A stretch of DNA of 64,000 bases from Thermodesulfobacteriota bacterium (GTDB lineage Bacteria > Desulfobacterota > UBA8473). Below are positions 5,430-18,173 of the stretch, in pieces. The stretch lies in the NCBI GenBank assembly GCA_040757775.1, contig JBFLWQ010000006.1, forward strand, positions 1 through 64,000, in the 5' to 3' direction. The position numbers and the translations under genes were made by a program. The number at the start of each line of letters is the position of its first letter. Position 1 is the first letter of the stretch. The notes below the pieces were generated by a model. It was given only the letters and a program-made list of their open reading frames with translations. It had not been told where the DNA came from and searched no databases.

Positions 5430-6317
5430 TTAAAGAAGACCAGCAGCAGCCAGGATGTCGGGTACTTTTCCTTCTTTCCCTATAGCCATTATATGTACCC
5501 CATCGCAAATTTTTTCGTCCTTGAGGGTTTTAATCATACGTCCTGCTATTTCGATACCCTTTTCCAGTGCCTTACCCTTTTCAGCACCTGCCATTTCGTC
5601 TATTAAATCCTTGGGAACAAAAATCCCTGGCACGTTGGCATTCATGTATCTTGCCATACCTGCAGAGACGAGAAGGACTATACCAGCCATTATCTTCACA
5701 TCGAATTTACGGGCATATTTCATGAATTTCTTAAAATTGTCAAGATCATAAATAGCTTGGGTTTGTATAAACTCCGCACCTGCCTTGATTTTCTTCTCGA
5801 ACTTAATTAGCTGAGGTTCAATGGGGTTTGCCTCGGGGGTCACAATGGCCCCTTTGCAAAAAGTAGGGGATCCCTTTAACTCATTACCTCCAAAGTCTTT
5901 TCCCTGCTCTAATCCTCTAATTGCCTTTAGCAAAAGTACCGAATCAAGATCAAAGACCGGTTTTGCATCGACATGATCCCCGACCGTTACATAATCACCC
6001 GTCAAACAAAGAACATTTTTTATCCCAAGTATATACGCACCCAGAAGTTCCGCCTGAAGGGCAATACGATTTTTGTCCCTGCAAGTCATTTGCAGGATCG
6101 GCTCTCCCCCTGCTTCCTGAATAAGCCGACAGACCGGAAGGGTACTGATTCGCATAACAGAGCTTTGGTTGTCAGTTACATTGAGTCCATCAACCTTATC
6201 CTTGAGTATCTCGATATGGTGCTTCATCTCTTCTATGTCGACCCCTTTAGGGGGACCCACCTCTGCAGTAACAACAAATTTTCCAGAATCAAGGGCTTCT
6301 TTAAATGACTTTGCCAT
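5430..6317 (-). CDS. metF: 5,10-methylenetetrahydrofolate reductase
   Basis: 295 aa TIM-barrel flavoprotein interconverting methylene-THF and methyl-THF. Recognised by TAEVGPPKGVD near the N-terminus, the central NVLCLTGD, and the C-terminal region. AAAGGAG precedes ATG 6317. It follows metV by 3 nt. In acetogens MetF paired with MetV and Hdr/Mvh-like proteins does not simply use NAD(P)H; this arrangement strongly suggests the same type of complex here. It would run as reductase in acetyl-CoA synthesis or as methyl-THF dehydrogenase in acetyl-CoA oxidation. Confidence 0.95.
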   Translation of the reverse strand: MAKSFKEALDSGKFVVTAEVGPPKGVDIEEMKHHIEILKDKVDGLNVTDNQSSVMRISTLPVCRLIQEAGGEPILQMTCRDKNRIALQAELLGAYILGIKNVLCLTGDYVTVGDHVDAKPVFDLDSVLLLKAIRGLEQGKDFGGNELKGSPTFCKGAIVTPEANPIEPQLIKFEKKIKAGAEFIQTQAIYDLDNFKKFMKYARKFDVKIMAGIVLLVSAGMARYMNANVPGIFVPKDLIDEMAGAEKGKALEKGIEIAGRMIKTLKDEKICDGVHIMAIGKEGKVPDILAAAGLL

Positions 6318-6320
6318 GAA

Positions 6321-6989
6321 TTACTCCTTTTCTTTGAAAGCTTCGTGAACTCTCCGCCCAGGTCTAGTTTGAACACTGTATTTCTTTGCTGGAAAGATCT
6401 CTCGAATACTGTCTAACCTGCCAAGTTTGTTCAACCTGTTATATATGAGGGTCCATGCACAGTCTTTTCCTTTATCTACCTCACATTTCCCATCATTTGT
6501 ACCACCACAGGGCCCGTTTAAAAGACCCTTGGCGCATATGGTAACAGGGCAGATTCCACCTGTCTCAGCCAGTACACAATCGCTGCATGCCCTGCATCTT
6601 TCAGCCCACACCCCTTCCGCCTCTGTAACACCGATGAATCTGGTATTCGTTGCGGGAAGGACTACCTTATGGTCGTACATCTCAGCCAAAAATTGAACCC
6701 CGGCACCGCATGCCATAGACACAACCACATCATAATTGTCTATCCTGTCCTTCAGAAGTTCCAGGTATTCTCTATCGCACTGTCTTTCTAAGGTTGCTTC
6801 TCCAATCTCTATTTTCTTTCCTTCTTTTCCTGCCGCCATTCTCAGCTGAGAGGCAAGTATCTCAACCTCTTTCTCTCCCCCAACCATACAGACTGAAACA
6901 CATTCACCACAACCAACTATTAAAATCCTCTCAAAACCCTCAAGCATGGCCTTGATATCATCAAAAGGCTTTCTATCTGCAACTATCAT
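6321..6989 (-). CDS. metV: MetV-like zinc/Fe-S partner of methylene-THF reductase
   Basis: 222 aa from ATG 6989, chosen because GAGAGGTG lies just upstream; the frame opens at 7031. It begins IVADRKPFDDIKAMLEGFER and carries VGCGECVSVC (Cys cluster 1), SMACGAGVQF, then RCRACSDCVLAETGGICPVT and a C-terminal GPCGGTNDGKCEVDKGKDC, all Cys motifs of the MetV / MTHFR-C family. In Moorella-type systems MetV binds MetF and links it to HdrABC-MvhD. The neighbourhood (mvhD upstream, metF downstream) matches that complex. Cofactor content is inferred from the family. Confidence 0.9.
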   Translation of the reverse strand: MIVADRKPFDDIKAMLEGFERILIVGCGECVSVCMVGGEKEVEILASQLRMAAGKEGKKIEIGEATLERQCDREYLELLKDRIDNYDVVVSMACGAGVQFLAEMYDHKVVLPATNTRFIGVTEAEGVWAERCRACSDCVLAETGGICPVTICAKGLLNGPCGGTNDGKCEVDKGKDCAWTLIYNRLNKLGRLDSIREIFPAKKYSVQTRPGRRVHEAFKEKE

Positions 6990-7051
6990 CCCTTCACCTC
7001 TCAACTTCGTAAATCGTGAATCGCAAACCATTTATCATTCACGATTCATAA

Positions 7052-7075
7052 GCGAACACATAGGTTCGCCCCTAC
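7052..7075 (-). repeat. REP-like hairpin, inverted (6)
   Basis: Stem GCGAAC (7052-7057), 6-nt loop, GTTCGC (7064-7069), CCCTAC to 7075 (GTAG foot on the minus strand). It abuts the mvhD stop codon at 7076-7078. The opposite arm lacks the outer GGG, so it is a partly eroded copy. Just left of it are ATTCACGATTCA repeats. Confidence 0.6.
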
Positions 7076-7495
7076 TCATGGTTTTTTTGCCCTTATGGGA
7101 TTTGGGCCAAGTTCTCTTGCTCTTTCTGTCATTTCGTCTGCCGCACCTGTAAATTTTTGTGCATCTGATGCACCCATATTGAACATTTCTACCCTTCTAC
7201 TGTCAATGCCAATCTCATCCAGCAATTTTTTCGCGTACTTCACCTGTTTCTTTGCCCTCAGATTTCCTTCCAGGAAATGACATTCTCCTTCTTCTCACCC
7301 GGCAACAAAGACAGCATCTGCCCCACCTTCAAACGCCTTTAACAAATGTATTACATCTACCTTGCCGGTACACATGAGCTTTACAATCCTGACGTTTGGG
7401 GAGTACTGGAGCCTCATAGAACCTGCTAAATCTGCAGCAGAATAGGCACAGTACTGACAGCAAAAGGCAATTACTTTCGGTTCAAATTCATTCAT
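7076..7495 (-). CDS. mvhD: MvhD/FlpD-like Fe-S subunit, selenoprotein (UGA = Sec67)
   Basis: 139 aa if the in-frame TGA at 7295-7297 is read as selenocysteine. Residues 1-66 (CCQYCAYSAADLAGSMRLQY ... LKAFEGGADAVFVAG) and the sequence after the TGA (EEGECHFLEGNLRAKKQVKY ... FNMGASDAQKFTGAADEM) are both typical MvhD, in the same frame. Together they have the family's usual length of about 140. The TGA sits exactly at the first Cys of the conserved VAGC....CH motif, which is Sec in some methanogen VhuD proteins. A small hairpin (ATTTCC, 5-nt loop, GGAAAT) starts about 17 nt after the UGA, where a bacterial SECIS is expected. MvhD carries electrons into HdrA. Automated annotation would cut the gene to 66 aa. 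Confidence 0.88.
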
Positions 7496-7533
7496 ATAGC
7501 GTCTTCCTTTTATTATTAATCATAGATTAGCTG

Positions 7534-10500
7534 CTATGCAACAGACAAAACCGCACACTTTGCCACAACCTGATTGTCCTTGTAGTTCTGCAGGCTTATA
7601 GCCTTTCGTGGACATGCCGAGGCACATATGCCGCATCCCTGACAGGATGCCGCCTCTATCTCTGCAACACCTTCCTTATTTATAGACGGAACATCAAAGG
7701 GGCATACCCTGACGCAGGTAAGACATGCAGCACACCTGTCCTGATCAACCACTGATACCATCCCGCTCACATACATCTGATCCTGAGAGAGAACCGTACA
7801 GGCTCTGGCAACTGCTCCCCTGGCTTGAGATATGCTTTCCTCTATGAATTTCGGTGAATGGGCTAATCCACATAAGTATATTCCGTCATTAGAGAAATCC
7901 AATGGTCGCAACTTCATATGGGCTTCCAGGAAATAACCGTCCATATTGAGGGGCAGCTTAAATGTGGTGGCTAATTCCTCTGCATCAGGACGGGGATGGA
8001 TACCTGCACTTAAGACAAGACAATCTGGTTTTATGGTAATCTCTGCTCCCAGGGTTTCATCGAACACCTTCAGCTCAAGCTGGTCGTTAGAAGAGGTAAC
8101 ATCTGGTTTTTTGTCTGCATCATATCGGATAAATACCACACCAGCCTCTCTCGCCTTTTTATAGTAAAGTTCCTTGAAGGCATATGTCCTTATATCCCTG
8201 TAAAGCACATAAACATTAATATCCGGATTAATCTCCTTAAGCTTAATGGCATTCTTTACTGCCTCTCCGCAACACACCCTGCTACAGAACCTGTGTTCAT
8301 CGTCTCTGGAACCCACACATTGAATCATGACAACATCTTTTATATCTTTAAACTCCTCTTTGGATGCCACTATCTTTTTTTCCAGTTCCCGCTGGGTCAA
8401 TACCCTTTTATCCTGTCCGTACAGGTATTCTGTAGGTGTGTACTCAACCCCTCCTGTAGCAATTATCACCACACCATGTTCCAACTCTTTTAAGTCCCCG
8501 CCGGTAGAAACCCTGGTCTTAAAGTTTCCCACATGACCGGAGAATTCAACTATATGGGAATCCTTAAATATCTTTATCCTGTTCTGTTTCTCTACTTGCT
8601 GAATCAACTCCTCAACATACTTACTTGGTTCCATTTCATCCAGGGTGTAATGCAAATCCCTGGCATTACCACCAAGCTCACCGGTCTTTTCAACAAGGTA
8701 GGTCTCGTACCCCTGGGAAGCCAAAGAAAGAGCAGCAGTCATACCTGTTACCCCGCCTCCTACGACGAGGCCACGGGGGATAACGTTGAAAGGAAGTTCC
8801 TGCAGGGGTTCCAATGTATTCGCTCTGGATACTGCCATCCGGATTAAATCCTTTGCCTTTTCAGTAGCCTCTGCTGGGTAATTCGCATGAACCCAGGAAC
8901 ATTGATCCCTGATATTTGCCATTTCAAACAAGTACTTGTTAAGCCCTGCTTCTCTCAGGGTGTCCTGGAAAAGGGGTTCATGGGTTCTTGGAGTACATGA
9001 TGCTACAACCACTCTGTTTATACCCTTTTCCTTTATAATATTTATCATATTACTTGTAGTATCAGTGGAACATGTAAAGAGATTCTCTTCAGCGTGAACA
9101 ACTCCTGGGAGTGCCCTGGCGTATTCAGCTACTCCAGGTACATCTACAACCCTTGCTATGTTTGTACCGCATCTACAGACAAAGACTCCTACCCTCTCTT
9201 CCTCAGAAGCAATTTCTCTTTCAGGAGGATAGATTTTTTCTTTGATCATGCTCCCCCTTTCACTGGAAAGGAGTTCTGACGAAAGGTCTGCAGCGCTGCT
9301 AGCCGTCATTACCGATTCAGGAATATCCATAGGTGCTTCAAAGGCACCGGCAACATAGACCCCTGGTCTTGATGTGACATTAGGCGCAAGAGTATTAGTT
9401 TCGCAGAAACCATACTGATTCAGTTGTACTGAGAGTTTTTCAGCCAACTCTCTTGTCCCGGGTGACGGCACCAAACCAACAGACAAAACCACCATATCAA
9501 ACTCTTCTTCTTTAATCTGTTCGTTATCCGTGGTGTACTTCACCATAAGGTTGTTGGTCTTTTGAAACTCTTTTACATTTGAGACGATACTCTTTATATA
9601 TTTTACACCGTATTTATTCTTCGCTGTTTCATAGTAAGATTCAAAACCTTTCCCAAATGCCCTTATATCATTATAGAAAACAGTTGCTTCAAGACCTTCT
9701 ACATGGTCTATAGCCATTATTGCTTCCTTTGTTGCATACATACAGCAAACTGATGAACAGTACTCTTTGCCGCAAGAAGCATCACGAGAACCAACGCATT
9801 GAATCCATGCTACTCTCTTTGGGGTGGTTTGATCCGATGGACGTAAAACATGACCATGGTAGGGTCCTGATGCTGACAGTATTCTCTCAAACTCAAGGCT
9901 CGTAACCACATTCTTCATCCTGCCATAACCATATTCTCCTTTTATGTCTGCATGAAACTCTTCATACCCTGGAGTTAGTATTATGGAGCCCACATCTATA
10001 TCAACAAGCTCTTCCTTCATCTGGTGGTTTATTGCCTTTGCAGTGCATGCATCAACACAACGTAAACACTCACTGCAGATACCACAATTCAGGCATCTGT
10101 TTGCCTCTTCAAGGGTTTGGGACTCAGAAAACCCCAACTGAACTTCATTAAAACTGCCTATCCTCTCTTTCACGTCGAGTCTTGGCATTCTCTGGCGGGT
10201 TGATCTTTCGATTCCATGGGTATCTACCTCTATCTCCTCCAGGGCCTCGCCCCTGCCTTCGTGCAGATCCTCTCCCTTTAAATACCTGTCAATAGAGACA
10301 GCGGCTTCCTTACCAGCAGCTATAGCCTCGACAACAGTGGCTGGACCTGAAGCAGCGTCCCCTCCTGCAAATATCCCTGATATATTTGTAGCATACGTAA
10401 CAGGATCTATATCAATGGTATTACTTTTGCTTAGCTTTAGTTCAATCTCAGGCGACATAAATGCCGTATCAAGAGACTGCCCTATAGCAGGGATTACCGC

Positions 10501-11961
10501 ATCTACATCCATAACGAATCCTGAATCTTTGATAGGGACCGGCCTTCTTCTCCCGCTTTCATCTGGCTCTCCCAACTCCATTTTTATACATTCCAGCCCA
10601 ACTACCTTACCGTCCTTACCCAAAATTCTGACCGGGGCTACAAGGTAATGAATCTTTATACCCTCCTCTTCTGCCTCCTCTATCTCTTCATCATTGGCAG
10701 GCATTTCTTCTATAGACCTTCTATATATTATAAATGCCTCCTCGGCACCTAACCTTAAAGCCGTTCTGACAGAATCAATGGCAACATTGCCGCCACCTAT
10801 TACTGCAACTCTTTTCCCAAGAGAAACCTTTTCCCCAAGATTTATATCTCTTAGAAAGTGAACACCGTGAACAACCCCCTGCAGGTCTTCTCCCTCTATA
10901 CCTAACTTTCTGCTGACATGAGATCCAACCGCTAAAAATATGGCATTGTATCCATCTTTCTGCAGGTCCTGGATTGTAAGGTCTGCCCCTATCTTGATAT
11001 TTGTTCTTATCTCTACTCCAAGCTCTTTTATATAATCTATCTCTGCATTCAGTATGTCCTTTGGGAGCCGGTACTCCGGGATTCCCACAGCCAGCATACC
11101 GCCTGCCACTGGAAGTGACTCAAAGACCGTCACATTGTAACCTTTCAAAGCCAGGTAGTAGGCCGAACTTAACCCTGCCGGGCCTGAACCTATAATGGCT
11201 ATTCTCTCTTCCCTTTTTTCTTCAATCTCTGGCAGTTTTTTCTCTTTTGATTTAAGCTCTAAGTCTGCGACAAAGCGCTTCAGAAAATCGATGGCTACCG
11301 GTTCATCAACCTTACCCCTTGTACACTTTCCCTCACAGGGATGATGACACACTCTTCCGCAGATTGCCGGAAGGGGATTGTCCTTTTTGATGAGCGCCAG
11401 TGCCTCTTCATACCTGCCCTTTGCAATAAGGGCTATATATCCCTGAACATGTATATGAGCTGGACACGTAGCCTTGCATGGAGATGTCCCTTTTTTGTCT
11501 ATAGCGTAAGCACTGGGTATAGCCTGAGGAAAGTTTTTGTAAATGGCCTTTCGGTCTGTCAGCTCCTCTTCAAATGCGGCAAAAACATTTACCGGGCAAA
11601 CCTCTATGCAATCACCGCAGGCGTTACACTTTTCAACATCTATAAATCTGGGACGCTTCAACACTTTTATTTTAAAGTTACCTGCCTCCCCCTGGACATC
11701 TTCTACCCTGGCATTTGTTATTATATCTATATTGAGATGTTTATCACATTCAATAAGCTTGGGAGAAATTGTACACATGGAGCAGTCATTAGTGGGAAAT
11801 GTCTTGTCCAGTTGTGCCATTCTTCCACCAATAGACGTTGATTCATCCACCAGATATACCTTAAAACCAGAATTTGCCAGGTCCAGAGATGCCTGCATTC
11901 CGGCAATGCCGGCGCCAATGACCATTACTGAACCTATCTTTCGTTGATTACTATCCGACAT
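7534..11961 (-). CDS. hdrA: Giant HdrA: two HdrA modules with a GltD-like insertion
   Basis: 1475 aa, about twice a usual HdrA. Order: FAD site VIGAGIAGMQASLDLA (14-29); CNACGDCIEVCP (112-123); a glutamate-synthase-small-subunit/NfnB-like insertion (about 155-640) with CxxxC Fe-S motifs, IIGSGPAGLSSAYYLALKGY (256-275) and nucleotide site VIGGGNVAID; CLNCGICSECLRCVDAC; return to HdrA with QCVGSRD...CSSVCC (721-740); a second HdrA module from about 925 (CRCGTNIARVVDVPGV, VVASCTPRTHEP, VVGGGVTGMTAALSLA); C-terminal double ferredoxin (CAACLTCVRVCP, CQGCGICASACP). HdrA is the flavin electron-bifurcating subunit. Here it would link MvhD, HdrBC and MetVF, and the GltD part suggests an NAD(P)H site. 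No in-frame TGA occurs. Confidence 0.93.
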   Translation of the reverse strand: MSDSNQRKIGSVMVIGAGIAGMQASLDLANSGFKVYLVDESTSIGGRMAQLDKTFPTNDCSMCTISPKLIECDKHLNIDIITNARVEDVQGEAGNFKIKVLKRPRFIDVEKCNACGDCIEVCPVNVFAAFEEELTDRKAIYKNFPQAIPSAYAIDKKGTSPCKATCPAHIHVQGYIALIAKGRYEEALALIKKDNPLPAICGRVCHHPCEGKCTRGKVDEPVAIDFLKRFVADLELKSKEKKLPEIEEKREERIAIIGSGPAGLSSAYYLALKGYNVTVFESLPVAGGMLAVGIPEYRLPKDILNAEIDYIKELGVEIRTNIKIGADLTIQDLQKDGYNAIFLAVGSHVSRKLGIEGEDLQGVVHGVHFLRDINLGEKVSLGKRVAVIGGGNVAIDSVRTALRLGAEEAFIIYRRSIEEMPANDEEIEEAEEEGIKIHYLVAPVRILGKDGKVVGLECIKMELGEPDESGRRRPVPIKDSGFVMDVDAVIPAIGQSLDTAFMSPEIELKLSKSNTIDIDPVTYATNISGIFAGGDAASGPATVVEAIAAGKEAAVSIDRYLKGEDLHEGRGEALEEIEVDTHGIERSTRQRMPRLDVKERIGSFNEVQLGFSESQTLEEANRCLNCGICSECLRCVDACTAKAINHQMKEELVDIDVGSIILTPGYEEFHADIKGEYGYGRMKNVVTSLEFERILSASGPYHGHVLRPSDQTTPKRVAWIQCVGSRDASCGKEYCSSVCCMYATKEAIMAIDHVEGLEATVFYNDIRAFGKGFESYYETAKNKYGVKYIKSIVSNVKEFQKTNNLMVKYTTDNEQIKEEEFDMVVLSVGLVPSPGTRELAEKLSVQLNQYGFCETNTLAPNVTSRPGVYVAGAFEAPMDIPESVMTASSAADLSSELLSSERGSMIKEKIYPPEREIASEEERVGVFVCRCGTNIARVVDVPGVAEYARALPGVVHAEENLFTCSTDTTSNMINIIKEKGINRVVVASCTPRTHEPLFQDTLREAGLNKYLFEMANIRDQCSWVHANYPAEATEKAKDLIRMAVSRANTLEPLQELPFNVIPRGLVVGGGVTGMTAALSLASQGYETYLVEKTGELGGNARDLHYTLDEMEPSKYVEELIQQVEKQNRIKIFKDSHIVEFSGHVGNFKTRVSTGGDLKELEHGVVIIATGGVEYTPTEYLYGQDKRVLTQRELEKKIVASKEEFKDIKDVVMIQCVGSRDDEHRFCSRVCCGEAVKNAIKLKEINPDINVYVLYRDIRTYAFKELYYKKAREAGVVFIRYDADKKPDVTSSNDQLELKVFDETLGAEITIKPDCLVLSAGIHPRPDAEELATTFKLPLNMDGYFLEAHMKLRPLDFSNDGIYLCGLAHSPKFIEESISQARGAVARACTVLSQDQMYVSGMVSVVDQDRCAACLTCVRVCPFDVPSINKEGVAEIEAASCQGCGICASACPRKAISLQNYKDNQVVAKCAVLSVA

Positions 11962-12039
11962 CTAAACCACCTCTTTATTCGTGAATCGTGAGTCGTTAAT
12001 CGTAAAATAAAAAACGATTCGCCATTCACGATTCACGAC

Positions 12040-12891
12040 TTACATAAGCCCTACAGACCTTAACAACTCCATTGGATCGACCATGTGTCTTCGGAGCCAT
12101 TTCTCAGCGTCACCATGAGCCATAGATAATCCTATTAATTCAGTCATATAGAATACAGGCAGATAGTATCCCTTCCCATATTCATCAGATATCTCCTTCT
12201 GCCTTGTATCCAGGTTGGCATGGCACAGAGGACACGCCACCGCAATGCAATCAGCGCCAGCCTCAATTGCCATATCAAAAAGGTTATTGCCCAATCTCTT
12301 TACGATGTCAATCCTGGTCAATGCTAGATTGCCACCGCAGCAATCTGTCTTAAATGACCATGGTTTGCTTTCTGCCCCTAAAATATTTATCAATCTATCC
12401 ATACTCTTAGGGTCTTCATAATCAGCTACATCCGTAATCTTCGGAGGACGTGCATACAGACATCCGTAGAAAGATACAACCCTCAGATCTGTTAAAGGCT
12501 TTTTAACAAATCTTTCCATAAGGGCAAGGTTTTCATCCTCGCTTAAAAAGTCCAGAATATGTTTAATCTTTATCTTACCCTTATAGGATGTCTTCACATC
12601 CGTTTTTATTTCACCAATTGCCGCCTTTTCTGCGCTTTTTAACCTGTTAAAACAAGCCATGCAGGGAATTAGCAAATCATCATTCTCTTTTTCTGCAATT
12701 TCCAGATTTCTCATAGGCAATGCAATTGACAGAAAATCATCAGTTATATGGGCAGAGCTTGCCCCACAGCAATTCCAATCCTCCAGCTCCCTCAGTTCAA
12801 TGCCCAACACATCAAATACCCTTCTAAGGGATTCATCGTAATCCCGGGCACTGCCCTCTAGTGAGCAACCCGGATAATAGGAAACCCTCAT
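12040..12891 (-). CDS. hdrB: Heterodisulfide reductase subunit B-like (CCG domains)
   Basis: 283 aa. Starts RVSYYPGCSLEG and has two complete CCG motifs: NCCGASSAH...CMACFNRL and DCCGGNLALT...CPLCHANL. In HdrB these bind the two unusual [4Fe-4S] clusters that reduce a disulfide. Bacterial homologues without CoM/CoB act on other acceptors or as electron relays, here presumably between HdrA and MetVF. The ATG overlaps the hdrC stop by 3 nt (ATGA), so the two are co-translated. Confidence 0.93.
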   Translation of the reverse strand: MRVSYYPGCSLEGSARDYDESLRRVFDVLGIELRELEDWNCCGASSAHITDDFLSIALPMRNLEIAEKENDDLLIPCMACFNRLKSAEKAAIGEIKTDVKTSYKGKIKIKHILDFLSEDENLALMERFVKKPLTDLRVVSFYGCLYARPPKITDVADYEDPKSMDRLINILGAESKPWSFKTDCCGGNLALTRIDIVKRLGNNLFDMAIEAGADCIAVACPLCHANLDTRQKEISDEYGKGYYLPVFYMTELIGLSMAHGDAEKWLRRHMVDPMELLRSVGLM

Positions 12892-13454
12892 GATTTCTTT
12901 CTCCTTTGAGCTTCTTCAAAGATACCCCTAACCTCTTTTCTTCCCCTAATTCCGGAAGGCAGGATTTTCAACTTTCCTCTTTTGAACATTTCCCACCCCA
13001 GCATGGAATCCCTCATCAAGTCTCCGGTTTTTAATTTATATTCTCCTATCATACCCAATTCATGAATTCTTCCCCTCTTCTTAACTGATGAAAGAAAAGC
13101 TGCGTGGAATACAGGAACATCTTTTTGTGCCGTATCAAACTCTAAATCAGTGGCTATCTGCCTTAAGGCATCCATCAATTTAGCAATATCTATATTATTT
13201 GGGCATCTGGTAGTACACGTTTCGCATGAAGCGCATGCCCAGATGGTAGAACTCTTTAATACCTCATCCTTTAACCCTAGACGAATCATATGTATTATCT
13301 TATGAGGCATAATATCCATAGCAAAGTTTACCGGGCAACCATTGGAACACTTTTTACATTGAAAACAGGAAGAGATTTCAACCTCCCGTTTATCCTCTAT
13401 TTCTTGAAGAAAAGATGGCCCGTTATTTCTTTCTAACAGCACTTTAGCTTCCAT
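12888..13454 (-). CDS. hdrC: Heterodisulfide reductase subunit C-like (2x[4Fe-4S])
   Basis: 188 aa soluble ferredoxin-like subunit. Two clusters are visible: CFQCKKCSNGCP and CASCETCTTRCP. HdrC passes electrons from HdrA to HdrB. Length and motif spacing are normal. It is the first gene after the 159-nt gap behind acsE, and a terminator-like hairpin ends 18 nt before its ATG. Confidence 0.93.
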   Translation of the reverse strand: MEAKVLLERNNGPSFLQEIEDKREVEISSCFQCKKCSNGCPVNFAMDIMPHKIIHMIRLGLKDEVLKSSTIWACASCETCTTRCPNNIDIAKLMDALRQIATDLEFDTAQKDVPVFHAAFLSSVKKRGRIHELGMIGEYKLKTGDLMRDSMLGWEMFKRGKLKILPSGIRGRKEVRGIFEEAQRRKKS

Positions 13455-13471
13455 ATTTATTAACCCACGTT

Positions 13472-13518
13472 AAAAAAGGGCGTCCCGCGGTTAATCATGC
13501 TTCACGAGATTCGCCCTT
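13472..13518 (-). terminator. Terminator/attenuator-like hairpin between acsE and hdrC
   Basis: Read on the minus strand: AAGGGCG, an inner pairing TCTCG/CGGGA, then CGCCCTT followed by a run of T. It has the form of an intrinsic terminator, but only about 18 nt separate the T run from the hdrC ATG, too little for a new promoter. It is more likely a partial terminator setting the acs to hdr-met transcript ratio, or an element affecting hdrC translation. Confidence 0.55.
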
Positions 13519-13613
13519 CGATTAATTGATTTAGGCTTCTTCGATAATCCCGATCTTTGTATCAGGAAAGCTTTCTTAACAGGGAATAATTCTTTCAGTC
13601 GTTTAAAAACTAA

Positions 13614-14507
13614 TTAGAGTTCAAGCCACGAGTCCGAATATAAGGAATGTCCCAGAAGAACCTTCGCCGTTTTTACATAATCGAGTTCTTCCTTTGTCAA
13701 TGATGCCAGATTAGGTTCATTGCCATCACAAATATCCTCGATTATCTTCTTGATCTTCGGTCTCTCACCCTTGCAGAAGGCGGTCATTTCATCATCAAAG
13801 GCATCAACGATTGCTGAGTACATCCCATACTTTTCTAAAATTACTATAAATGTCTGATTCAGTATGGGACGCAAGTGTTCAGGTGCCCCATTGGAGACAT
13901 TCGATAGACCACAGGTGGATTTTAGCCCTGGTGCCAGGGCTTCTGCTATATCGGGAAACATCATCATAAAGTTTACCATGCTTTTTATCTGGTCTTGCTG
14001 GACGTTAACAGGCGTCATAATGGGATCCACGAATATATCCTCCGGGGCTATGCCGGCTTCAAGCATAGCAGAAACCAGAGTTACAGTAAGTTCTGACCTT
14101 TCATTTTCATCTCGTGGCATCCCCGAAGGCCCCCAGAGCAAGGCTATAGCCTGGGCATTGTATTTTGCAGCTAGGGGTATCATAGCATCCATCCTTTCCG
14201 GTCTTGCCATGATCGAGTTTATCATCGCTCTTCCCTTATGGACCTTCAACCCTGCCTCAATAGCCTCTATATTAGATGTGTCTAAAGCCAGAGGTATATC
14301 CGGCACTACCTCCTGAACGGTCTTTACAATCCACTCCATCAGTTCAGGTCCGCCTTTTCTTGCCGGCCCCAGATTAATGTCAATCCAGTTCACTCCTTTT
14401 TCCGCTTCTGCTTTTGCCAGTTCTCTGATTGGACCGGGATCTTTCTCCTTCATGGCAGTGCCAATCTTCGTTACCATTACATTTAAATTCTCTCCGATTC
14501 GTAACAT
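13614..14507 (-). CDS. acsE: Methyl-THF:corrinoid/Fe-S protein methyltransferase
   Basis: 297 aa, pterin-binding TIM barrel. Diagnostic stretches: GENLNVMVTKIGTAMK at the start, GVNWIDINLGPARK, IPLALDTSN, INSIMARPERMDAMIPLA, and FVDPIMTPVNV. It transfers the methyl group between methyl-THF and cob(I)amide of the AcsCD protein. It is slightly longer than the ~262-aa acetogen enzymes, mainly at the C-terminus (KKIIEDICDGNEP...). It lies 30 nt after acsC, its substrate protein. Confidence 0.95.
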   Translation of the reverse strand: MLRIGENLNVMVTKIGTAMKEKDPGPIRELAKAEAEKGVNWIDINLGPARKGGPELMEWIVKTVQEVVPDIPLALDTSNIEAIEAGLKVHKGRAMINSIMARPERMDAMIPLAAKYNAQAIALLWGPSGMPRDENERSELTVTLVSAMLEAGIAPEDIFVDPIMTPVNVQQDQIKSMVNFMMMFPDIAEALAPGLKSTCGLSNVSNGAPEHLRPILNQTFIVILEKYGMYSAIVDAFDDEMTAFCKGERPKIKKIIEDICDGNEPNLASLTKEELDYVKTAKVLLGHSLYSDSWLEL

Positions 14508-14537
14508 ACTTACCCCTCTCTTTTCCTATAAAGTTTC

Positions 14538-15884
14538 TTATGCAGACAGCTGTCGCAAGTAGGCAGGGAGATGGGCAGCTTCTCTTGGTCCGATTGCTAC
14601 TTCCCAGTCTCCCAACTCCTCTTCCAGGTCTCCACTGATAGACGCTGCATACCCTGGAATAATTATCTTTCTTGTCTTAGCCTTATCTATGATACCACAC
14701 TTCTTAACAAAGATCCCCAGTGCATCGCCTACGAATTTGCCTGCTGCCCATGCCGTCATAACTGAAAGTCCTTCGGTATCAATAATCAAAAGCCATGTAG
14801 GGACCTTGCTGCCTTCAATCTCTCCGGAAACGATAAAGTAAGTAAGGGCAAAATTAGATGTAATACAAATCGGCGAGTTTTCATCCGGATTATTGATTTC
14901 GTAGATCCCCTGTGTCACCACCATGGGACGCTGGGGATCGGTGTAAATATTCAAACGTTCCAGGAGAAGTGGGAAAAGGCTCGCTCCATCGAAATCTGAC
15001 ATCACTGCTATATTGCCATACTTTGCAATCAGCATCGAGGCGATAAGTGTTTCCTGTTCCAGGGTCTCTGCCATTTCAAAAGGGAGAGAAATTGTAGGGA
15101 ACCCCAGGGACTTGTTCTTGGCGAGAAGTGCCGCCCTCCTGATGGCAATCTGATCTTCATAAACCTGCTTTATCGATCTTGCCCCTGAGTCAAGCACCAG
15201 ATCTTTAAGCCCCAGGGCAGTTGCCTTATCTGACAATTCGATTAAGTTGTCAATGTTAGTACCTTTAATCGCCAGAGGGCATCTGCTTTCCTCAGCCAAT
15301 TTTGCCATCTTTTCAAAATTGTCATTGGTTGCAGCATATATGAGGGGGTTCGTTCCGCTCTTTGCCTTGATGCCTGCAGCCATAACATCGCTATCCTCAC
15401 TCATGAGAATATAGCTGAAATTGCTGGTATCTGCCACTTGCTTTGTCAGTGCCTCGAATTTCCCTGCATCGCCACTGGTATCTTTGACGGCTACAAGTTC
15501 TGGTCTAAGGTTTAGCCCTACCCTCTCATACTGGAAGGTATCCCATTTCCTTAGTTTCATATCAACAGTATCTGCATCCATATCGGTAGTTAATAGGGCA
15601 GCCAGCCCAGTTGGATTAAAAAAGGTCTTCTCGTGACGGTAAAGAACTGTCTCTCCTCCCACCTTTACCTGCCTGTCTCCGTATCCAACCGTGAGCTGCC
15701 TTATTGGAGGAGCGGAGGCTTCTGCAAGCTTTTCCTTTGCCTCTTCAGAAACATAGGGACAGGCGGAAAGCTCAGCCTTTCCCGCCGCCAGATTCATCGC
15801 AAAGGCAAGGCAGGTAGGAACACCACATTCCTTACAATTTGTTTTGGGAAGCAATTTAAAAATCTCTATACCTGTAAGAGCCAT
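14538..15884 (-). CDS. acsC: Corrinoid/iron-sulfur protein large subunit
   Basis: 448 aa. N-terminal [4Fe-4S] domain with Cys17, Cys20, Cys25 and Cys42 (NCKECGVPTC ... ACPY), then a TIM barrel and a C-terminal B12-binding region (GLSVMTAWAAGKFVGDALG). It carries the methyl-cobamide that AcsE loads and AcsB unloads. Length is normal for the family. It lies between acsB and acsE in the array. Confidence 0.95.
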   Translation of the reverse strand: MALTGIEIFKLLPKTNCKECGVPTCLAFAMNLAAGKAELSACPYVSEEAKEKLAEASAPPIRQLTVGYGDRQVKVGGETVLYRHEKTFFNPTGLAALLTTDMDADTVDMKLRKWDTFQYERVGLNLRPELVAVKDTSGDAGKFEALTKQVADTSNFSYILMSEDSDVMAAGIKAKSGTNPLIYAATNDNFEKMAKLAEESRCPLAIKGTNIDNLIELSDKATALGLKDLVLDSGARSIKQVYEDQIAIRRAALLAKNKSLGFPTISLPFEMAETLEQETLIASMLIAKYGNIAVMSDFDGASLFPLLLERLNIYTDPQRPMVVTQGIYEINNPDENSPICITSNFALTYFIVSGEIEGSKVPTWLLIIDTEGLSVMTAWAAGKFVGDALGIFVKKCGIIDKAKTRKIIIPGYAASISGDLEEELGDWEVAIGPREAAHLPAYLRQLSA

Positions 15885-15959
15885 AACGATCTTTCCTCCT
15901 CAACTTTTATACACAGAGAAATGCCCTCACACAGGGGGAGGGCCAAATCAAAACCGTGA

Positions 15960-18173
15960 TCAGCCTATAATAGGTTCCATCTTTAGCGCCGGATGATCTT
16001 TCTCCTTTAAGAACGGCATAATTTCATCCTCGGTGATACCCACCGTCTCGTCAGCTATCCTATCGATCAAGTCTGGGCATCCCAATTCCTTTCCCCGCCT
16101 TAATAATCCTTCTCTGAGTTCCTCTTTTAGCCCTTTGGGCATCCAGACCATCCGCAGCAGCCCGCCGTCTCCAGAAATGAACTTCCGCTGGCAAATATTG
16201 TATTTGCTGTGTCCTACGAACCCTGGTGAGGATGCCCCGCCCCCCATAACTCCGGCGAGAGTCGTAAATTTCATCCCCGACGGGGTCTCTCCAGTGTAGT
16301 CCCTACCCACTGTCATAATCCCGTTACATCCGGAAAGCACAGCTGCGATACATTCACAGCATCCGCAGGTAGTCATAGGGTCGTGGACAAGACTATAGAA
16401 ATTATAATGGGTTACATTCTGCCGTGATGCCTTATAGACAAAATCATTTACACCCTTCCACTGTCCTAATTTCGGATCGATACATTCTCCCTTTTCTACC
16501 GGCTGGTTTGGGCCGGTGGGGTTGATCTCGTAAGAAGCCTTGCAGTCCATCCAGTTATAAGCGCCGCAGAGACCTGTCCTCTCCGGGCTTACCATGCATA
16601 CATGGTTGGGAGCAAAAGACTGGCACAGAGTGCAAGAATAGTAGGTCTCCACACCTTCATCCGTCATCTGTTCTACCCTGGCATCGCGTTTCTTGTAATT
16701 TTCCCTGGCAGTAGCGGTCAGCTTGTCCACATCATCTTTCTTAGTATAAAGAGTGACCTGCACCTTATCCAGAATGGCGCCAAAATCCTGGTGTAGTTTG
16801 GCATGGAGGATTACCCCGATGTCCCTGAGGGTAAACCCTTTGTTCACAGCCTGTTCACCAACCCTGATCCATGCGATATCCCGCTGTCCAATGTGCATAA
16901 CACCCTGGGCATAATTGATAAGGTGATGTATCTGCCTTTCAAGGATGGGCTCAAAGTCTTCCTGCATCTGACGTCCTGCAACCTGGACAAAGATACCAAG
17001 GGGGAGTCTGTCGCCTTTTTTTATATCTTTAATATCAGGTCCTATTACTTCTATCTGGCCGTCTTCAATCTCCTTCATATCTGCCATACTGCAGAGCTCA
17101 ACCGCCTGGGTTTTTCCACCACCCATCTCCAGGTAAAGATCGTCTTTTCTTACCCGCTCCCCTTCGAATGCCGGACCATATGCCAACGGGATATCCACAC
17201 TAGCCACGGTTACCTTAAGCCCCCGAATCTCTATAGACTTTTGGGGCATTTCCCTGTGAGGAACATTAGCAACCACATGTTCGTACGTGCAGACTCCGGT
17301 AGGCAGAATTTCGGGTATGTCGGTATCGGCAATGGTGGGGAACCCCCAGTTGACACAACCGGCAGCATTGGCCGCCCATTCGGCATTCACCTCACCCAAT
17401 GCATTGACAAAAGCAAAGATTCTGTCCTTATTATAGAGAAGCACCCTCTTATAATCCCCTGGTTTGATCCCCCCAAATGCCATAGCCGCACGGTTGGCAA
17501 AACCTAGGGCAAACACCGCAGCGGAGATATCAGGTCCAAAGGGAACCAGACGGGTATTCCAGCCAATCTGTACCCCGGCTTCCAGAAGCTGCTCTGAAAA
17601 AGTGGTGCCATTTTGGTTGGCACACATGAAAACATAGAGGTTCTTTTTCTGGTATTCTTCCGCAATCCACTTGGCCGTCTCAGGATCAGGAGCAGCTCCG
17701 ACGATAGCCGCAAAACCCGGGGCGGTTCCATCCACAAATTCAACTCCTCGTTTACGGAAGACTGTATCTTCAGCGGCTCCAAGCCAGATTTTTCCCGAGG
17801 TCTCATCAACATCCTCACTGACCAGATAGAAACCAGGGTCTTCCAGATAACGAATAGCCTCTACCACCTCCTCTGCAAAAAGGGCAGCCATACCGGCGTC
17901 TAACAGAGGTCCCAAGTAGGGCAGGTGGTACATATTCTTCACATGAGCCGGCAGAAGTTTTCTGGCTACTTCCATAGGTTTTTGGGCATCCCCCAAGGTT
18001 TTTACCGGAATTCCAAGGATAGAATAGATAATAGGAAGATAATAAGCCGTATTGGGGAATTCAATCTTCTTATCCGGCCCGTGTTTTTCCAGTGCCTTTT
18101 TGAGAGTCCCCTCAGCTTTGGAAACGATATTGTATGCGCCTTGAATGGCGGCAAAAGCAACTAACTTGGACAT
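15960..18173 (-). CDS. acsB: Acetyl-CoA synthase (CODH/ACS beta subunit)
   Basis: 737 aa, full-length bacterial type. A-cluster ligands are all present with the spacing of the Moorella enzyme: Cys514, Cys517, Cys526, Cys536 for the [4Fe-4S] part, and Cys603 and Cys605 in CGC for the distal Ni. The N-terminal CODH-contact domain (residues 1-310) is present, unlike the shorter archaeal CdhC. It joins CO, methyl-CFeSP and CoA into acetyl-CoA, or cleaves acetyl-CoA. It is preceded by cooS 42 nt upstream, with which it forms the tunnel complex. Confidence 0.97.
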   Translation of the reverse strand: MSKLVAFAAIQGAYNIVSKAEGTLKKALEKHGPDKKIEFPNTAYYLPIIYSILGIPVKTLGDAQKPMEVARKLLPAHVKNMYHLPYLGPLLDAGMAALFAEEVVEAIRYLEDPGFYLVSEDVDETSGKIWLGAAEDTVFRKRGVEFVDGTAPGFAAIVGAAPDPETAKWIAEEYQKKNLYVFMCANQNGTTFSEQLLEAGVQIGWNTRLVPFGPDISAAVFALGFANRAAMAFGGIKPGDYKRVLLYNKDRIFAFVNALGEVNAEWAANAAGCVNWGFPTIADTDIPEILPTGVCTYEHVVANVPHREMPQKSIEIRGLKVTVASVDIPLAYGPAFEGERVRKDDLYLEMGGGKTQAVELCSMADMKEIEDGQIEVIGPDIKDIKKGDRLPLGIFVQVAGRQMQEDFEPILERQIHHLINYAQGVMHIGQRDIAWIRVGEQAVNKGFTLRDIGVILHAKLHQDFGAILDKVQVTLYTKKDDVDKLTATARENYKKRDARVEQMTDEGVETYYSCTLCQSFAPNHVCMVSPERTGLCGAYNWMDCKASYEINPTGPNQPVEKGECIDPKLGQWKGVNDFVYKASRQNVTHYNFYSLVHDPMTTCGCCECIAAVLSGCNGIMTVGRDYTGETPSGMKFTTLAGVMGGGASSPGFVGHSKYNICQRKFISGDGGLLRMVWMPKGLKEELREGLLRRGKELGCPDLIDRIADETVGITEDEIMPFLKEKDHPALKMEPIIG

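Follow-up and report, generated by a model that had tools for sequence, protein, structure and literature searches.

A probable selenocysteine at residue 67 of MvhD in a methylenetetrahydrofolate reductase gene cluster of a Thermodesulfobacteriota bacterium

In a 64,000-nucleotide stretch of a Thermodesulfobacteriota genome (hereafter the window), the mvhD gene very probably encodes a selenoprotein in which selenocysteine (Sec) is inserted at an in-frame UGA, codon 67, and which would work in an HdrCBA-MvhD-MetVF complex. The reading of UGA as Sec is supported by the Sec machinery of the genome, conservation of the UGA, selection on the codons downstream of it and a co-varying SECIS hairpin. 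The genes hdrC, hdrB, hdrA, mvhD, metV and metF all lie in one cluster, next to Wood-Ljungdahl genes:

5430-6317, minus strand: metF, methylenetetrahydrofolate reductase (PF02219)
6321-7031, minus strand: metV (PF12225), true start probably about 6989
7076-7495, minus strand: mvhD with putative Sec67, terminal TGA at 7078-7076 (PF02662, PDB MvhD chains, AlphaFold, 5odc_D)
7262-7278, minus strand: bacterial SECIS hairpin AUUUCC-UGGAA-GGAAAU, predicted from covariation, 17-33 nt past the UGA, loop at 7272-7268
7295-7297, minus strand: in-frame UGA (putative Sec67), occupying an invariant Cys column
7534-11961, minus strand: hdrA, 1475 aa, with an inserted GltD/NfnB-like Fer4_20 + Pyr_redox_2 block at residues about 159-550
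12040-12891, minus strand: hdrB (CCG domains)
12888-13454, minus strand: hdrC
13614-18173, minus strand: three Wood-Ljungdahl genes, namely
13614-14507, minus strand: acsE-like methyltransferase gene
14538-15884, minus strand: gene for an acsC-like CdhD-domain protein
15960-18173, minus strand: acsB

Read on the minus strand from 7495 to 7076 through the TGA at 7297-7295, mvhD encodes a 139-aa MvhD/FlpD protein with 66 residues before the UGA and 72 beyond it. The product reads MNEFEPKVIAFCCQYCAY...VFVAG-U-EEGECHFLEGN...RAKKP or, more fully, MNEFEPKVIAFCCQYCAYSAADLAGSMRLQYSPNVRIVKLMCTGKVDVIHLLKAFEGGADAVFVAG-U-EEGECHFLEGNLRAKKQ...IRAKKP, and is followed by the terminal TGA. The read-through product matched the FlpD profile PF02662 over positions 1-123 of 123 (E 4.2e-48, 162.9 bits), and PDB MvhD chains aligned to it end to end. 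An AlphaFold2 model based on 39 relatives, in which C was put in place of U, reached a pLDDT of 91.7 over the read-through length and superposed on Methanothermococcus MvhD (5odc_D) with a TM score of 0.92 and an rmsd of 1.1. A preliminary description of the locus had placed the gene at 7076-7495, had followed its frame past the TGA as MvhD for 72 more residues, and had assigned the TGA to the first Cys of a VAGC....CH motif. The coordinates were right, the gene lying on the minus strand (translation of the plus strand at 7076-7515 gave no protein); the profile and PDB matches bear out the frame; and homologues do carry Cys at the UGA, which falls in the column of the first Cys of their [A/V]GC-x4-CH motif.

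In an alignment of 39 homologues, C13, C16, C42, U67 and C72 correspond to five invariant Cys columns; C12 is variable. MvhD is described as binding a [2Fe-2S] cluster and connecting electron donors to HdrA (PMC12350162, PMC6019823), and the cluster is known for MvhD homologues (PMC12350162). Because residue 67 directly follows the β-strand formed by residues 61-66 in the model and occupies one of the five invariant Cys columns, Sec67 probably ligates the cluster or lies against it.

The TGA stands at the same place in the genomes of four congeners and in two genomes from a sister genus of the same family. Between congeners, the codons after the TGA show dN of 0.018-0.048 against dS of 0.30-0.52, and therefore the downstream part is under strong purifying selection at the protein level. 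The relatives thus keep the UGA and also the frame that follows it; a stop in close relatives with nothing conserved behind it, which the preliminary description had named as the finding that would overturn its reading, was not what we saw. It is accordingly very unlikely that translation really ends at this UGA, leaving mvhD as a pseudogene or yielding a 66-residue fragment. The genome does use UGA as an ordinary stop, and mvhD itself ends with one, but the selection on downstream codons, the retention of UGA, frame and hairpin across families and phyla, and the confident folding of the full-length product as MvhD all speak against termination at codon 67.

At minus-strand 7278-7262, downstream of the UGA, a 6-bp stem encloses a GG-containing loop that begins 23 nt after the UGA, and G occupies the first loop positions, as expected of a SECIS. 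In a minimum-free-energy test, the window hairpin was not exceptional (z = 0.41), and since plain folding energy does not single it out, the proof rests on comparison. All six pairs were present in 35 of 35 homologous genes with UGA67. Among distinct sequences, they were kept in 30/30 with UGA67 and in 12/140 with Cys67 (about 9%; Fisher p = 5e-24, a value that is indicative only because related sequences are not independent). Nucleotides 17-33 after UGA67 took three forms, ATTTCCTGGAAGGAAAT in 26 genes, ATTACCTGGAAGGTAAT in five and ATTTCCTGGAGGGAAAT in four. The ATTACCTGGAAGGTAAT form carries a compensatory swap of a T-A pair to A-T, in which TTC to TAC on the 5' side is matched by GGA to GGT on the 3' side. 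The 5' change replaces Phe with Tyr and the 3' change is silent in a Gly codon, so the silent change tracks the pairing. Ten Cys67 genes share the local peptide, and only one of them kept the stem. A loose hairpin scan separated the two classes partially (100% of UGA67 and 37% of Cys67 genes), and the fixed columns separated them much better. On this comparative evidence the 7278-7262 element is, in practice, a bacterial SECIS, and the preliminary description, which had reported a 6-bp hairpin with a GG-containing loop at SECIS distance, had identified the correct structure. Co-varying SECIS elements were present in relatives of several phyla.

The single Cys67 gene that kept the stem with the same local peptide comes from a Chloroflexi MAG (locus L045, match 6001-6396). 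It has the exact SECIS hairpin and was placed within the Sec67 group in a quick tree; it is likely a recent Sec-to-Cys change that left a fossil hairpin.

The genome also encodes a complete set of Sec machinery: SelA (E 1e-168), SelB (357 bits, above cut-off), SelD (E 1e-117) and a tRNA-Sec (77 bits against a gathering score of 47), which ARAGORN found as the same gene with anticodon TCA. A search for these components had been proposed as a check that could refute the Sec reading, and all were found. SelD is itself a selenoprotein, with an in-frame TGA encoding the U of its AGUASKLG motif; UxxK is the motif listed for Sec-containing SelD (PMC13188914). Across the phylum, the presence of SelA did not separate Sec67 from Cys genomes; nearly all have SelA. 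One SelA match in another genome (G029:C84:10391-11488) has an in-frame TAG, perhaps reflecting pyrrolysine use or an error.

The Cys found at residue 67 of homologues would also fit decoding of the UGA as Cys, or as Trp, by an altered code or a suppressor with no Sec involved. We consider this even less probable than a true stop: inside these conserved genes UGA occurs only at Cys sites followed by a SECIS-type hairpin, the Sec system is complete, and UGA67 was the only site in the window to pass a read-through scan requiring a SECIS hairpin with a good coding half on each side (no other convincing site was found when the window was scanned for further Sec genes). That a sequencing or assembly error made TGA out of TGC or TGT is hardly credible, for although the genome is a draft of 50 contigs, the same TGA appears in many separately assembled genomes.

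Taken together, these observations favor Sec insertion at UGA67, for which we infer the following mechanism. SelB with Sec-tRNA would bind the hairpin that occupies nt 17-33 after UGA67, and the ribosome would put in selenocysteine rather than stopping, yielding a 139-residue [2Fe-2S] protein. This protein would act in the Wood-Ljungdahl pathway, as part of the HdrCBA-MvhD-MetVF methylenetetrahydrofolate reductase complex. Sec67 would replace one of the five invariant Cys at the C-terminal ends of β-strands, where the cluster must be, and, ligating or touching it, would probably change the potential or reactivity of the [2Fe-2S] cluster. Sec may tune electron entry to the Hdr-MetVF complex, as had been proposed for this gene.

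The gene neighborhood indicates that MvhD is most likely the link in such a complex. The Moorella/Sporomusa-type HdrCBA-MvhD-MetVF (PMC9430772, PMC5736913) has the same gene set with adjoining Wood-Ljungdahl genes, the assignment here being made from genes; in Sporomusa, HdrA, HdrB and MetF are recovered by pull-down with tagged MvhD (PMC9430772). The window system differs from that type in the Sec67 of its MvhD and in its 1475-aa HdrA with a GltD-like insert. No hydrogenase or formate dehydrogenase genes were found within the cluster (5430-18173), and the insert resembles GltD/NfnB-type NAD(P)H oxidoreductases, which makes it a candidate entry point. Electrons may thus enter at this NAD(P)H-type insert of HdrA, with MvhD passing them towards MetVF and not itself forming the entry. 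The Fer4_20 and Pyr_redox_2 domains suggest that NAD(P)H feeds the complex directly.

Between mvhD and metV, the spacer at 6985-7078 contains many inverted repeats (GTGAATCG/CGATTCAC, GCGAAC/GTTCGC), shows short matches to other places in the genome, and resembles a small REP-type element. Read from its ORF start at 7031, metV extends into this repeat-rich spacer, and 6989 is the likelier start.

To place the gene among its homologues, we compared eighty named loci from genome contigs together with loci from 247 sampled genomes of the phylum, reading TGA as Sec. The 180 distinct FlpD sequences comprised 85 with TGA at residue 16 (CxxU), 35 with TGA at residue 67 and 60 without TGA at either position; none had it at both. 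These counts are not frequencies because many regions were fetched for bearing a TGA. Only one other alignable TGA was seen, at residue 137 and close to the end of the gene concerned. The patterns used to scan the contig loci were unable to detect genes with both TGA; two whole-genome searches, one with a methanogen VhuD query, were able to do so, and no double-TGA gene was among the matches listed. metV, metF and hdrA adjoin most of the surveyed mvhD homologues. The residue-16 genes have another conserved hairpin, GGACC-TGGCA-GGTTC, at nt 15-29, and an apical CCUGG[A/C]AGG is common to both types. RNAalifold gave no good consensus on the residue-16 genes; the columns GGACC-UGGCA-GGUUC nonetheless pair in nearly all of them.

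Ten MvhD homologues are encoded in the genome, three of them with a TGA: the window mvhD at residue 67, and the genes at C24:13534 (CHYU) and C16:33489 (CTWU) at residue 16. The C24 gene belongs to a second hdrC-hdrB-hdrA-mvhD-metV-metF cluster, which has a plain 1020-aa HdrA and its own MetVF. A further MetF-like gene precedes that cluster (L238, G000:C24:7000-22000), and an NfnB/GltD-like fusion gene lies downstream. On C16 (L239), the HdrA of another Hdr cluster (5437-6768) likewise contains an in-frame TGA, within the CxxU motif CAIU; CxxU HdrA is a known selenoprotein type, and a Sec16 FlpD protein is encoded downstream of it.

It is possible, though we hold this tentatively, that Sec67 and Sec16 MvhD are two tuned isoforms, one per Hdr-MvhD-MetVF complex, whose clusters would differ in properties to serve different electron donors or directions. 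This reading adds to the Sec67 explanation and is no alternative to Sec itself. It is consistent with the pairing of Sec67 with the insert-bearing HdrA and of the C24 Sec16 protein with the plain HdrA and its own MetVF, with the occurrence of both types in at least ten sampled genomes, and with the finding of no surveyed gene carrying both TGA. In a quick tree, the residue-16 genes fell nearly into one group and most residue-67 genes into another, and each group contained nested Cys genes. The split could, however, reflect history and not tuning, and the supporting tree is a quick one.

Sec MvhD as a kind is already known from Deltaproteobacteria and Clostridia since 2006, in agreement with the preliminary description, which had noted earlier reports in Desulfobacterota. 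A 2006 count gave 19 Sec FrhD proteins, eight of them from Syntrophobacter and four from Syntrophus, the rest from Desulfotalea, Geobacter metallireducens, Moorella and other organisms, with several FrhD selenoproteins per genome (PMC1794560). A methyl-viologen-reducing hydrogenase selenoprotein was listed in a marine deltaproteobacterium in 2021 (PMC8318568). These proteins share with the window MvhD the family, the bacterial Sec system and the link to Hdr (PMC1794560, PMC8318568). The openly readable texts consulted give no Sec position for bacterial FrhD/MvhD and no residue-67 hairpin; the motif in a later review is CxxU (PMC13188914). A bacterial line with a single Sec67 and its own SECIS, in an either-or pattern, was likewise not found in openly readable texts (subscription papers lay outside the search). 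Residue 67 is thus the less described of the two possible Sec places in MvhD.

The likeness to methanogen VhuD that had been pointed out also stood. In PDB 9sfi_K a modified residue, X, stands at both the residue-67 and the CxxU position, and we infer from molecule names and the literature, rather than from coordinates, that X is the Sec of VhuD. A 2026 review describes CxxU with two Sec, and multiple Sec in some archaeal FrhD/VhuD (PMC13188914). Methanococcales VhuD (9sfi_K; PMC13188914) resembles the window MvhD in having Sec at the residue-67 position and in serving as an electron connector to Hdr. Both positions are X/Sec in VhuD, whereas the window gene has one UGA only and Cys at residue 16, and the archaeal SECIS lies in the 3' UTR, whereas that of the window mvhD lies inside the gene. 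Against the NCBIfam VhuD model NF045873, the window MvhD scored 180.7 bits, below the cut-off of 215.

In an ancient carbon-fixation complex, the product of mvhD would serve as electron connector. Standard gene calling splits the gene in two, so that across several phyla MvhD is easily overlooked in a genome or taken for a broken gene. The residue-67 SECIS provides a clean covarying bacterial example with a traceable Sec-to-Cys loss. We further suggest, as a conjecture less likely true than false, that bacterial MvhD comprises two lines, each with a single Sec at residue 16 or 67 and its own SECIS, never combined, and that the two, working in separate Hdr-MvhD-MetVF reductases of one cell, set different electron-transfer properties. 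If so, the difference would be set at the step for which the path by which electrons leave the [2Fe-2S] cluster and reach the bifurcating flavin still lacks an explanation; transfer from MvhD to HdrA spans about 25-30 angstroms, and its mechanism continues to be described as unknown (PMC12350162, PMC6019823). The Sec/Cys exchanges that occur naturally at two defined cluster positions offer a ready experiment on the handover of electrons from MvhD to HdrA.
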